Below are positions 24,137 through 28,706 of a DNA stretch of 32,892 nucleotides, in pieces. Origin of the DNA: Thermodesulfobium sp. 4217-1 (GTDB lineage Bacteria > Thermodesulfobiota > Thermodesulfobiia > Thermodesulfobiales > Thermodesulfobiaceae); assembly GCF_039822205.1 (NCBI RefSeq), contig NZ_JBAGBW010000020.1, positions 1 through 32,892 on the forward strand. Direction: 5' to 3'. The translations under genes and the position numbers were made by a program. Within the stretch, counting starts at the first letter, position 1; each line of letters begins with the position of its first letter. The notes under the pieces were generated by a model, which saw only the letters and a program-made list of their open reading frames with translations, made no database searches and was not told where the DNA came from.

Positions 24137-24240
24137 AATTATTCACCACACTAGAGGTGATTATATACAAAAAAAGAGTAGAAAAAGTTCTTTTCAAATA
24201 GGAAAATAAAATCTTTTCTATTTTTATCTTGTGTAAATTT

Positions 24241-24264
24241 GTGTGTGTGTGGGGGGGGGGGGGG
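24241..24264. repeat. (GT)5 followed by a G14 homopolymer
   Basis: Five GT repeats (24241-24250) run directly into fourteen G residues (24251-24264) in otherwise very AT-rich DNA. The tract lies ~115 bp upstream of the minus-strand GAF/PAS/GGDEF/EAL gene, a place where a change in length could alter promoter spacing. Confidence 0.95.
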
Positions 24265-24679
24265 CTAAAGAACTTATAAAATATAAATGAATTTGAAGTA
24301 AATAAAATCTTAAAGAGTTTAAAAAAATAAAAAAATAATTTACAACTTACGCTACAAAAAACAAAGTTACTTTTTAAAAAGTTAAAAAACATGGGACAAA
24401 TGCTTTACAACAACAATAAAATAGGTTTATCCCCTCGTCAAATTACATCATCTCCATATTCTTAAATTAAAAACCAAAATTAAAGAAAATATAATATTAT
24501 CATGCTATGCAAACCTAGTTATTTAATAACACAATAAAAATTGTATCATAAAGTATAAAATATTGTGAATAGCAATTTGCTGCTTTGCAATTTAAATATT
24601 AACATATAAATAAATTAGTAAAAACTAAATTTATTACAATTGATTTCTATAAAAAACTAAATTATACTATAAGGTATTG
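24265..24679. other. AT-rich intergenic stretch, no gene seen
   Basis: About 415 bp with few G or C bases. Open frames here are low-complexity and lack SD sequences. It must contain the promoter for the structured leader that begins at ~24680 (AT-rich blocks such as TATACTATAAGG at 24663-24674), but I cannot assign -35 and -10 elements with confidence. Confidence 0.5.
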
Positions 24680-24780
24680 TTTCTCCGAGTTTGCATATCT
24701 AAAGCTTAAGTGCTATGAGTGCAAACCAATACGGTAGCTTTGGAAACGAAACTGCCCCCCTTTTGGAAAGGAGGAAAATA
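24680..24780 (+). ncRNA. Structured mRNA leader, candidate riboswitch sequestering a ribosome site
   Basis: This ~100 nt region folds into a closed multi-stem structure. P1 pairs TTTCTCC (24680-24686) with GGAGGAA (24770-24776), which is the SD of the ORF at 24782. P2 is a perfect 7 bp stem, GTTTGCA (24689-24695) with TGCAAAC (24720-24726). A third stem pairs GGTAG (24733-24737) with CTGCC (24752-24756). After a C-A mismatch it continues TTTG/CGAA, with one G-U pair, to a GAAA tetraloop (24743-24746). A fourth hairpin, CCTTT/AAAGG (24759-24771), competes with the inner end of P1. The stem order and the CTCCGAG...GGTAGC...GGAAAC...CTGCC...GGAAAGG sequence recall the molybdenum/tungsten-cofactor RNA class, but I am not certain of that match. 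P1 formation would block translation. Confidence 0.55.
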
Positions 24781-24781
24781 T

Positions 24782-24859
24782 ATGAGGTTTGTTTATTCAG
24801 ATTATTGTGCTTATTGTGCTTATTTTCTTGCCTCCCTCATCATCTTGTTCTTTCCTTAG
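24782..24859 (+). CDS. 25 aa hydrophobic peptide ORF under the structured leader
   Basis: An ATG follows AAAGGAGG at 7 nt spacing, the best SD in this part of the window, and the SD lies inside the RNA fold described above. The peptide starts MRFVYSDYCAYCAYFLAS and ends in a hydrophobic run before LFFP. It contains a tandem Cys-Ala-Tyr repeat encoded by two identical TGTGCTTAT copies. It is too short to assign. It may be a small membrane peptide, a leader peptide whose translation controls the downstream aldehyde dehydrogenase (starting ~145 bp later), or the remains of a larger gene once under riboswitch control. Confidence 0.4.
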   Translation: MRFVYSDYCAYCAYFLASLIILFFP

Positions 24860-25004
24860 AAATATTTTTATTTTTTTGATTTTAAAAATTTAAAACATTG
24901 GTTCATTTATTTAAGAATTGAATATAGCTTTATCAAATACTCCTAAGGTTGGAGATATCTAAATGGTGCCCCAAATTTAAAATCTGAAATAATTGGAGGT
25001 TGAT

Positions 25005-26645
25005 GTGAATCAAAATAAAGATGATATTAACTTTAACTTCAAATTCCCCATTATAAATAAAATCCCAGCTAAATTTGTTCTGAAAGATCGCATTGATCAA
25101 ACAGAATATCTTTGTAATGGAGAATTACAATCTTGGACAAAAGACAAAATAACCGTTCTTTCTCCCATTTTTTGTTGTAAAAATGAAGATTCAATACCTG
25201 AACAGATAATACTTGGAAGCTATCCATCATTAGATGAAGAAGAAGCACTAAAAATTCTTGATAGCTCAATAAATGCATATAATAACGGAAATGGGGCCTG
25301 GCCTTCAATGAAGGTTGAAGACAGAATAAAATGTGTTGAAAAATTTGTATATTTAATGCAAGACAATAAAGATGAAATCGTAAATCTTTTAATGTGGGAG
25401 ATTGCAAAATCACATATAGATTCAGAAAAAGAATTCGACAGAACTGTTAAATATATAATTGATACCATTGATGCGCTAAAAACTCTTGATAGAAACTCAT
25501 CAAAATTTTTAATAGAAGAATCAATAATTGCACAAATAAGAAGGTCTCCACTTGGTATAGTGCTCTGTATGGGCCCATTCAACTATCCTCTGAATGAAGC
25601 TTTTACAACCCTTATACCAGCTCTAATCATGGGAAATGTGGTTATTTTTAAACCACCAAAACATGGCATTCTTTTATATAGACCTTTGCTAAAAGCATTT
25701 AAAGAAGCCTTTCCACCTGGCGTTATAAATACTCTTTATGGAAGAGGAAGGACAGTTGCATCGGCTTTGATGGCAACAGGGAAGATAAATTGTCTCGCCT
25801 TTATCGGCACAAGTAAAGCTGCCGACTCGCTCCAAAAAACACATCCAATGCCTCACAGGCTAAGAATGATACTTGGACTTGAAGCAAAGAATCCTGCAAT
25901 TGTTTTGTCTCACGCAGACATTACCCTCGCCGTAAAAGAATGCTTGCTCGGAGCACTTTCTTTTAATGGACAAAGATGCACAGCGCTTAAAATACTATTT
26001 GTTCATTCTGAAATTGTAAATGTTTTTCTCAAAAAATTATCCGATGAGATTGAAAAATTAAAAATTAATTCTCCATTTGAAGATGATGTATTTATAACCC
26101 AAATGCCCGCAGAAGATAGGGTAAAATATTTTTTAGAGCTAATTGAAGATGCAAAAATGCTTGGAGCAAAAGTGATAAATAAATTTGGCGGTTCATACAA
26201 TAAAACCTACTTTTATCCAACAATTTTATATCCAGTTAATAAAAAAGCCAGAATTTATCACGAAGAACAATTTGGACCGATTATTCCAGTTGTTCCATTC
26301 TCAGACATTGATGAACCATTAAAATATATAACTGAATCTAATTATGGTCAGCAAGCAAGCATTTTTGGGTCTGATCCTGATGCAATAGCTAAAATTATAG
26401 ATGCACTTGTAAATCAGGTATGTAGGGTAAATTTAAATTCTCAATGCCAAAGAGGTCCAGATATATTTCCTTTTACTGGTAGAAAAGACTCTGCGGTCGG
26501 CACACTTTCAGTGTCTGATGCCTTAAGATCATTTTCTATCAGAACACTTGTAGCCGCAAAATCTTCAGACCTAAATAAAAATTTGATAACAAAAATAGTC
26601 AATGAAAATAAATCACAATTTTTATCAAGGGATTTCATATTGTAA
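25005..26645 (+). CDS. Aldehyde dehydrogenase, possibly non-phosphorylating GAPDH (GapN-like)
   Basis: A 546-residue NAD(P)-dependent aldehyde dehydrogenase. The Rossmann part shows GPFNYPLNEAFTTLIPALIMGN and KPPKHGIL, and the nucleotide-site glycine region is AFIGTSKAAD. The general base is E293 (LGLEAKNPAIVL) and the nucleophile is C325 (NGQRCTALK). The late core is EEQFGPIIPVVPF. The N-terminal ~75 residues are longer than in classical ALDHs. Sequence style suggests the GapN-like branch, which oxidises glyceraldehyde 3-phosphate to 3-phosphoglycerate, but substrate residues were not verified. GTG at 25005 is preferred over TTG at 24993 because GGAGG (24995-24999) lies 5 nt before it and overlaps the TTG region. 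It seems monocistronic, downstream of the structured leader. Confidence 0.9.
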   Translation: MNQNKDDINFNFKFPIINKIPAKFVLKDRIDQTEYLCNGELQSWTKDKITVLSPIFCCKNEDSIPEQIILGSYPSLDEEEALKILDSSINAYNNGNGAWPSMKVEDRIKCVEKFVYLMQDNKDEIVNLLMWEIAKSHIDSEKEFDRTVKYIIDTIDALKTLDRNSSKFLIEESIIAQIRRSPLGIVLCMGPFNYPLNEAFTTLIPALIMGNVVIFKPPKHGILLYRPLLKAFKEAFPPGVINTLYGRGRTVASALMATGKINCLAFIGTSKAADSLQKTHPMPHRLRMILGLEAKNPAIVLSHADITLAVKECLLGALSFNGQRCTALKILFVHSEIVNVFLKKLSDEIEKLKINSPFEDDVFITQMPAEDRVKYFLELIEDAKMLGAKVINKFGGSYNKTYFYPTILYPVNKKARIYHEEQFGPIIPVVPFSDIDEPLKYITESNYGQQASIFGSDPDAIAKIIDALVNQVCRVNLNSQCQRGPDIFPFTGRKDSAVGTLSVSDALRSFSIRTLVAAKSSDLNKNLITKIVNENKSQFLSRDFIL

Positions 26646-26998: not shown

Positions 26999-27154
26999 AT
27001 GATACCAGCTCAAGGTTTGCCCCCTGTTCCTCATTTTGCTTTTGGAATATTCAACCTTGCAACACCTGACATCATTGCATGGATGATTGTTCTAATTGTT
27101 TTTGTCATATCAATTTGGCTTAGATTGCCAAAGTTTTTTGAAGGGGATGAGTAA
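26999..27154 (+). CDS. 51 aa single-helix membrane subunit of the cytochrome b cluster
   Basis: A short ORF with a strong SD (GGAGGGAAAA before ATG). The peptide starts MIPAQGLPPVPHFAFGIF and has one hydrophobic helix (residues ~25-43, IIAWMIVLIVFVISIWL). It ends LPKFFEGDE. Its stop is one base before the ATG of the b6-like gene, so the two are almost certainly co-translated. Small single-helix subunits (PetG/L/M/N type) surround cytochrome b6 in b6f complexes, and this peptide could play a similar structural part. No family is recognised from the sequence. The strong SD, the tight spacing and the membrane context make it a likely real gene. Confidence 0.75.
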   Translation: MIPAQGLPPVPHFAFGIFNLATPDIIAWMIVLIVFVISIWLRLPKFFEGDE

Positions 27155-27155
27155 A

Positions 27156-27737
27156 ATGAATATTACAAGAAAAACAAAAAACTTTTTTAAGGAAAATCTA
27201 ACTTCAGATGACATTTTTCCTACAACTATGCCAACTTATGTTAATTCTTTTGCTTACATATTTGGCGTTATATCTCTTTCCTCTTTTGCTTTTATTGTAA
27301 TTACAGGAATAATATTGGTTTCATTTGGTCCAGCATGGTATCACTTTTCAAAAATCGGCGCTTTTGTTAACTCTCTTCATTTTTGGGGGGTCCAAATTTT
27401 TTTTGGAGGACTTATTCTTCATCTATTATCAAAATTCTCAATGGCAGCATATAGAGATGGACGAGGCAAAACATGGCTTTTCGGAATGTTGGCCTTTGGA
27501 TTAACAACCTTTGAAGGTTTTACTGGATATCTCTCACAAACAAATTGGGATTCTCAATGGATTGCTGTACAGTCAAAAGATTTGCTTAATGCTATGGGAA
27601 TTGGTGGATTTTTCGATCCAATGAACACGGCACAAATTTTAGGTTTTCACATTTTAGTTGTGCCTATCGTATTAATTGTGTTAATTATAATCCATCTTTT
27701 TCTCGTAAGAAGTGAAGGTCCTGTAAAACCTTTATAA
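27156..27737 (+). CDS. Cytochrome b6-like di-heme membrane protein
   Basis: A 193-residue four-helix membrane protein matching the N-terminal half of cytochrome b. Heme ligands are H75 and H89 in helix B (SLHFWGVQIFFGGLILHLL) and H165 and H180 in helix D (LGFHILVVPIVLIV...IIHLFLVR). Spacings of 14 and 15 reproduce the b6-type pattern; mitochondrial-type cytochrome b has 14 and 14. It should carry electrons across the membrane between low-spin hemes and exchange them with a quinone. ATG at 27156 is chosen, 9 nt after AAGGGG; ATG at 27147 and the open frame back to 27096 run into the upstream gene. No Rieske iron-sulfur protein or cytochrome f/c gene is present nearby. Confidence 0.88.
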   Translation: MNITRKTKNFFKENLTSDDIFPTTMPTYVNSFAYIFGVISLSSFAFIVITGIILVSFGPAWYHFSKIGAFVNSLHFWGVQIFFGGLILHLLSKFSMAAYRDGRGKTWLFGMLAFGLTTFEGFTGYLSQTNWDSQWIAVQSKDLLNAMGIGGFFDPMNTAQILGFHILVVPIVLIVLIIIHLFLVRSEGPVKPL

Positions 27738-27758
27738 ATTTATGTGGGGTGAGAAAAT

Positions 27759-28706
27759 ATGAGCTTAAAATCTGATAAATATTTAAAGAATGTTCCATTA
27801 AAATCTTATGATCTTATAAAAGAGGGCTTGGTTGTATTCGTATCCATAGCCATAATAATATTTGCTCTTGCCTTAGCATTTGGTTCTCCAGACTATCCTC
27901 CAGTTACCGCAAAACAAATTGCAAAATATGAATCTATTTCCTATCTGAAAACATTTATCAATATTCTTGACGACAAAAGCCCAATTGGCGACTATGGCCC
28001 GCCATACGATAGCGATACTTCTCAGTCTCAGAATTTTTTTGGTATTAAGCCTTCAGCTATTTTAGGTGTAACTACTCCGATTAATTCAATAAATGATTAT
28101 ATAATAAATCCTCTTGAAAAGGTTGCTGTTTTTGACAATAATTTAAAATCTGCTCTTGAAGCATATAAAAATGCTACCAATGAACAAAAATTGAAATGGG
28201 TAAAATCTTATGATAAGGCGCTTGAAAATGCAAAAATTGAACACAACAATGTAATAATTCCTAATGGTGACTACGGTCCTATAAAAACAATGATGAACAG
28301 TTTATTTAAGTTGGGTTTGTCTGGCTTACTCGAAGGATCAATTGTCTCTTCAAATTCTCCTTATGACTTTTATAATATGAATTTTACGAAACCATTGCTG
28401 CTTTTTCAGGGAAAAGTTTATCACAGTGTTGCAAGGCCATTGGATATGCTTGGAGAAGATTGGGGTATATCTAATGAAACAGGAAATTATCCTGGCGCTT
28501 GGTGGCTTTGGCCATATACACTCGCATACCAGCTACCGCCCATGTCAACATCTCCTAATGGAGATTTACAGGTTGGAATATTGATGATAACGTTTTTCTT
28601 AATACTTTTATTCTTGCCATTCTTGCCATTTCTCAATAAAATCCCAAAATTTTTAAAAATTTATAGAATAATCTGGAGAGATTGGTATAAAAATCAAAAA
28701 AATTAA
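27759..28706 (+). CDS. Membrane protein resembling the C-terminal part of cytochrome b with a large external domain
   Basis: A 315-residue protein with only two clear helices, residues ~24-44 (EGLVVFVSIAIIIFALALAFG) and ~274-297 (VGILMITFFLILLFLPFLPFL). About 225 mostly polar residues lie between them, presumably outside the membrane. Just before the second helix is YPGAWWLWPYTLAYQLPPM, in the position where subunit IV/cytochrome b carries PEWYLLPxxxxLR. The glutamate of PEWY is not seen. NKIPKFLKIYRIIWRDWYK follows the last helix on the cytoplasmic side. It is encoded 21 nt after the b6-like gene with SD GGGGTGAG. The likely role is the quinol-site partner of the b6-like subunit in an unusual complex. 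The external domain shows no CxxCH heme site or Rieske CxH motif. Confidence 0.75.
   Translation: MSLKSDKYLKNVPLKSYDLIKEGLVVFVSIAIIIFALALAFGSPDYPPVTAKQIAKYESISYLKTFINILDDKSPIGDYGPPYDSDTSQSQNFFGIKPSAILGVTTPINSINDYIINPLEKVAVFDNNLKSALEAYKNATNEQKLKWVKSYDKALENAKIEHNNVIIPNGDYGPIKTMMNSLFKLGLSGLLEGSIVSSNSPYDFYNMNFTKPLLLFQGKVYHSVARPLDMLGEDWGISNETGNYPGAWWLWPYTLAYQLPPMSTSPNGDLQVGILMITFFLILLFLPFLPFLNKIPKFLKIYRIIWRDWYKNQKN

Follow-up and report, generated by a model that had tools for sequence, protein, structure and literature searches.

The leader RNA that precedes an aldehyde dehydrogenase gene in Thermodesulfobium sp. 4217-1 is, to judge from its sequence, almost certainly a genuine and ordinary member of the Moco/Tuco riboswitch family (RF01055). 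It lacks the P3 arm and, in the reading that we favour with moderate confidence, it is an off-switch, probably sensing the tungsten cofactor (Tuco), that acts through a short leader ORF on an operon for metal-free, NAD(P)-dependent aldehyde dehydrogenases. The identity of the RNA comes from direct matches and counted pairs; the ligand, the direction of control and the transfer of the signal by the leader ORF we infer from gene context and comparison. The window, which is the whole stretch of DNA analysed, comprises 32,892 nucleotides.

Identity and fold of the leader RNA

The whole window was scanned against Rfam and RF01055 was the only family matched, at positions 24671-24789 of the forward strand, with 63 bits against a cut-off of 36 (E 4.5e-13). 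The alignment runs end to end through the model (1-135 of 135) with most of the P3 positions deleted, and the resemblance to a Moco/Tuco RNA without the P3 arm, which the original prediction had offered with reserve, is thereby confirmed. Folded alone, the segment 24680-24780 has an energy of -30.5 kcal/mol, the mean of shuffled sequences being -19.7 (z -3.0, with 4 of 200 shuffles equally good). The fold comprises P1, P2, a small hairpin inside P2, a GAAA-capped hairpin and a P5 of 2 bp, with P1, P2 and the capped hairpin placed as that prediction had drawn them. P1 is formed by seven pairs between UUUCUCC (24680-24686, +) and GGAGGAA (24770-24776, +). Fold, Rfam alignment and sequence agree on the latter strand, which holds the Shine-Dalgarno GGAGG (24770-24774) of the next ORF, 7 nt before its ATG, as had been proposed for the closing stem. 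The GAAA tetraloop of the long hairpin (24743-24746, +) is invariant in 28 aligned copies and is predicted to dock with a candidate receptor formed by two strands within P2, UCUAAAG (24698-24704) and CUAUGAG (24713-24719), a role like that described for this class (PMC2408646).

Nineteen P3-less relatives were aligned for covariation, and 90.4% of the cells in this alignment are paired, against 36-49% when the partner is slid. Double-change cells number 132 (shuffled mean 51) and are found in 23 of the 33 pairs. Covariation among homologues, whose absence the original prediction had named as a refutation, is present in P1 and P2, in the hairpin inside P2 and in the GAAA-capped stem (P4); both P5 pairs are invariant and therefore uninformative. 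The Rfam match, the alignment to the full model, and the pairing and double changes in relatives together settle the Moco/Tuco class.

Copies in the genome, the genus and beyond

The genome containing the window (2.0 Mb) has three RF01055 copies. One carries P3 and precedes modA (molybdate); another lacks P3 and precedes wtpA (tungstate), both ModA and WtpA scoring over their curated cut-offs; the last, also without P3, is the window copy before the aldehyde dehydrogenase. The same number of copies was identified in each of the four genomes of the genus, which has its own phylum (Thermodesulfobiota), the comparison genomes outside these four being related at the domain level only. P3-less RNAs associate with tungsten metabolism (PMC2408646), and the split between modA and wtpA agrees with this published rule. 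The window RNA has the marks of the Tuco subtype, being P3-less in an organism that encodes WtpA and AOR-family proteins. Beside the mod riboswitch, two sister genomes (G001 and G003) have a complete tRNA-Arg(TCG) gene that abuts the RNA; at this position the third sister (G002) and the window's genome retain only a tRNA-like fragment without its 3' end, and ARAGORN finds no gene.

The genes behind most other RF01055 copies examined are moaA, transporters of molybdate or tungstate, or AOR genes. At five loci the gene immediately after a Moco-family RNA encodes an extracellular solute-binding protein (SBP_bac_1/SBP_bac_8 type), which is unusual as a target of this riboswitch. A genome from another phylum (G144) is an independent case of a P3-less switch before an NAD-type aldehyde dehydrogenase. 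Behind its RNA, which scores 87.5 bits, lies a terminator (-16.3 kcal/mol), and the 5' arm of this terminator can alternatively pair with the P1 3' strand (-14.6); as modelled, this is how an off-switch would be laid out. The gene after it encodes an NAD-type glutamate-semialdehyde dehydrogenase (761 bits, cut-off 613.6) with no near same-strand gene behind it, and the genome encodes two AORs.

Promoter, expression platform and leader ORF

Directly 5' of the aptamer there is a candidate sigma-70-like promoter, TTGATT and TATACT with a spacer of 17 (24640-24668, +). Its 9 of 12 matches are below the level of shuffled sequences, and the argument for it is its location, not its score. It is the single promoter-like site in 24560-25060, none other being found between the aptamer and the dehydrogenase. 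Further upstream (24236-24264) a TG repeat leads into a run of about 14 Gs, likely a slippage-prone spot or a weak point of the assembly. No intrinsic terminator was found in the window leader on the forward strand, and the ribosome site lies within P1; the covariance model and the comparison of relatives bear out the translational-riboswitch layout of the original prediction.

The Shine-Dalgarno buried in P1 serves a short ORF and not the dehydrogenase. This ORF (24782-24859, +) comprises 25 codons, MRFVYSDYCAYCAYFLASLIILFFP, and its orthologues in the three sister genomes have 22 codons with the same start, stop and motif, MRF..SDY..FL..LII.F.P, the window ORF carrying an in-frame insertion of 9 nt. 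Of the pairs compared, a single one shows significant constraint at the codon level (p 0.013). From the stop of this ORF to the Shine-Dalgarno of the dehydrogenase there are 135 nt in the window. An ORF was identified in the same place in all four wtp copies, with a hydrophobic start and a different sequence; in the mod copies modA begins directly at that place, with no leader ORF. In G002 the wtp leader ORF is 61 codons long, and the overlap of this ORF with the start codon of wtpA (TTGA) is what translational coupling would predict; its counterpart in the window's genome ends earlier because of one base difference. Such an overlap with the next gene was seen only in that G002 copy and is absent from the window.

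Compared with the coding sequence of the window, the 3' half of the leader ORFs stands out for its pyrimidine content and, in most cases, for its YC steps, as would be expected of a Rho-loading or anti-Shine-Dalgarno stretch. In G001 and G002 the short ORF is computed to close fully the Shine-Dalgarno of the next gene (unpaired probability 0.00, rising to 0.34-0.38 without the ORF), and the leader ORF of the wtp copy in the window's genome does likewise. In the window and in G003 the computed openness of the dehydrogenase Shine-Dalgarno is not changed by the short ORF. An anti-Shine-Dalgarno hairpin was thus discarded as a universal mechanism, being clear in the former copies and missing in the latter two. 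A candidate terminator hairpin, located where the short ORF ends, was likewise discarded as the main platform, being weak in G001 and G003 (-3.6 kcal/mol at 37 C, -1.6 at 55 C) and hardly present in the window. On the conservation of the leader ORF, its pyrimidine content and the Shine-Dalgarno closure, a relay of the signal to the dehydrogenase gene by the short ORF is tentatively proposed as plausible, with a probability that we judge about evenly balanced; it could take the form of Rho polarity, Shine-Dalgarno release or coupling.

The dehydrogenases and their operon

What the RNA regulates had been left unclear by the original prediction and is now answered in part: a conserved short ORF, followed by aldehyde dehydrogenases independent of tungsten and molybdenum. 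The gene order given then stands; the start of the dehydrogenase is best moved from the mechanical TTG 24993 to GTG 25005, with a GGAGG Shine-Dalgarno (24995-24999, +) 5 nt before it. The proposed regulated gene of the window (25005-26645, +) encodes a GAPN-like NAD(P)-dependent aldehyde dehydrogenase of 546 aa (Pfam Aldedh, 309 bits). Among proteins of solved structure its eleven top matches are exclusively NADP-dependent GAP dehydrogenases (206-234 bits, the next family at 153), and it keeps the NYP, QRC and RGPD motifs; it misses the NCBIfam GAPN equivalog cut-off (203 against 780). In nearly all aligned members of its clade the general-base motif LELGGK is replaced by LGL[ED]AKN (LGLEAKN in the window), displacing the acidic residue by two positions. 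The substrate is uncertain because of this altered catalytic-base motif.

In G001 and G002 the riboswitch and the short ORF are followed by an ExaC-like aldehyde dehydrogenase of 493 aa, a small ORF of 71 codons without a Pfam family, and the GAPN-like dehydrogenase. From this comparison the ancestral operon appears to have been riboswitch, short ORF, ExaC-like dehydrogenase and GAPN-like dehydrogenase. Aligned with these two genomes, the window presents a deletion scar (24892-24961, +) where the ExaC-like gene and most of the 71-codon ORF were lost: the match of its leader to G001 breaks off at about 24899 and is taken up again within the small ORF, of which a 3' remnant is visible to 24961. 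The ExaC-like gene is also absent from G003, where the scar is another one and the start of the gene survives; since the scars differ, the two losses were separate deletions. Switch, short ORF and GAPN-like gene are retained in both lineages. Elsewhere in the window's genome no ExaC orthologue was found, the best other matches being 29-30% identical. The cytochrome b genes at 27096-28706 were rejected as operon members, as they are missing behind the dehydrogenase in G001. Outside the genus, none of 79 loci with related GAPN-like dehydrogenases has a Moco/Tuco switch nearby (best 16.6 bits, E 0.14).

ExaC-like and GAPN-like enzymes are not expected to need molybdenum or tungsten, given the chemistry of the ALDH superfamily. 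Each of the four genomes in the genus encodes AOR-family proteins, two in that of the window and three in the sisters; for one of these proteins the nearest solved structures are tungsten AORs (309 and 298 bits). None of the AOR proteins tested was identified as a GAPOR-type enzyme, and GAPOR was for this reason set aside as the direct tungsten counterpart of the GAPN-like enzyme.

Proposed regulation and alternatives

The proposed sequence of events is as follows. With the tungsten cofactor bound, P1 would close and hide the Shine-Dalgarno of the short ORF, which would stay untranslated; the dehydrogenase gene would then be little expressed, whether because Rho terminates on the pyrimidine-rich leader left bare, because the downstream Shine-Dalgarno is closed, or because translational coupling is lost. 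With the cofactor in short supply, P1 would open, the leader ORF would be translated and the metal-free enzymes would be made, substituting for the tungsten aldehyde oxidoreductases. The off-with-ligand direction is suggested by the position of the Shine-Dalgarno in P1, as in E. coli moaA (PMC2408646), and the G144 case helps. An exchange of tungsten and metal-free isozymes is likely, because the switch precedes genes for metal-free enzymes in a genome that encodes tungsten-type AORs.

The role of the short ORF admits two other explanations. It could be the only gene controlled, as a small hydrophobic protein with a function of its own, the dehydrogenase being made otherwise, for example from its own promoter. 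The hidden Shine-Dalgarno is indeed that of the short ORF, an ORF conserved in the four genomes, and the dehydrogenase has a strong one of its own, well past the short ORF. Nevertheless we consider this explanation improbable: the interval between aptamer and dehydrogenase has no second promoter-like site, each of the two separate deletions left the dehydrogenase on the same leader, and the differing sequences of the wtp-copy ORFs are easier to reconcile with a leader role than with a single shared protein. It is also possible, although rather unlikely, that the short ORF is incidental to a simple off-switch of translational or Rho-dependent type: the bound P1 would lower translation of the leader, and the message would be lost or terminated. 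In favour are the layout of E. coli moaA, with P1 and Shine-Dalgarno together (PMC2408646), a leader rich in pyrimidines and YC steps, and the weak codon constraint. An incidental ORF would hardly be expected to keep its start, stop, length and motif in four genomes, with an insertion that is in frame, nor to recur in this place at every wtp copy and at none of the mod copies.

The ligand has an alternative too. The aptamer could sense Moco, or either cofactor, and the dehydrogenase replace a molybdoenzyme, and several PF00384 molybdopterin oxidoreductases are encoded in the genome. The specificity of P3 is a correlation only, and the E. coli RNA without P3 lost regulation with no switch of specificity (PMC2408646). 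Within this same genome, however, P3 separates cleanly between ModA and WtpA, and AORs are the obvious metal counterparts of aldehyde dehydrogenases; we therefore give sensing of Moco little credence beside the tungsten cofactor.

Relation to known systems

In sequence, stems, GAAA tetraloop and P1 Shine-Dalgarno, and in the P3-less subtype accompanying tungsten-type enzymes and a tungstate transporter, the window RNA is like the Moco/Tuco RNAs of Regulski et al. 2008 (PMC2408646). It differs from them in its target, a metal-free aldehyde dehydrogenase operon, and in that the Shine-Dalgarno hidden in P1 is the one of a conserved short ORF. The targets described there are genes for cofactor synthesis, transport and use, the repression of alternative enzymes being merely speculated for two S. 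wolfei cases; direct ligand binding could not be shown since the cofactors are unstable, and P3 as discriminator of molybdenum and tungsten is a correlation (PMC2408646). No description of a metal-free dehydrogenase target with a leader-ORF arrangement was found for this class in the open-licence papers searched, and an earlier one elsewhere is possible.

Close parallels are two B12 riboswitches of M. tuberculosis (PMC11260477). That of metE is a cofactor riboswitch on a cofactor-independent isozyme, and that of ppe2 controls a translated uORF needed by the next gene, as is predicted here. Aptamer and ligand are different, and the isozyme and uORF features are there on separate leaders; ppe2 overlaps its uORF by four bases, whereas the short ORF of the window is at a distance from its gene. 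A further likeness is the glycolytic GAPN/GAPOR pair, for example in Methanococcus maripaludis, where according to the part of PMC4902934 consulted NADP- and ferredoxin-dependent enzymes carry out the same oxidation in one cell; that part describes no riboswitch, and here the GAPOR-type partner is missing among the tested proteins.

The genus offers a clean natural test of P3, with, inside a single genome, a P3 switch on molybdate uptake, a P3-less one on tungstate uptake and a P3-less one on enzymes that are likely a tungsten-free backup. As a tentative generalisation, in which we place less than even confidence, Tuco switches may toggle between tungsten and metal-free aldehyde oxidation, an arrangement that would have arisen at least twice and that in this genus would work by gating a conserved leader ORF that turns on the following genes. 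If true, the principle known from B12 and metE, by which a cofactor riboswitch governs an isozyme that can do without the cofactor, would be extended to tungsten, with a leader-ORF relay in addition.
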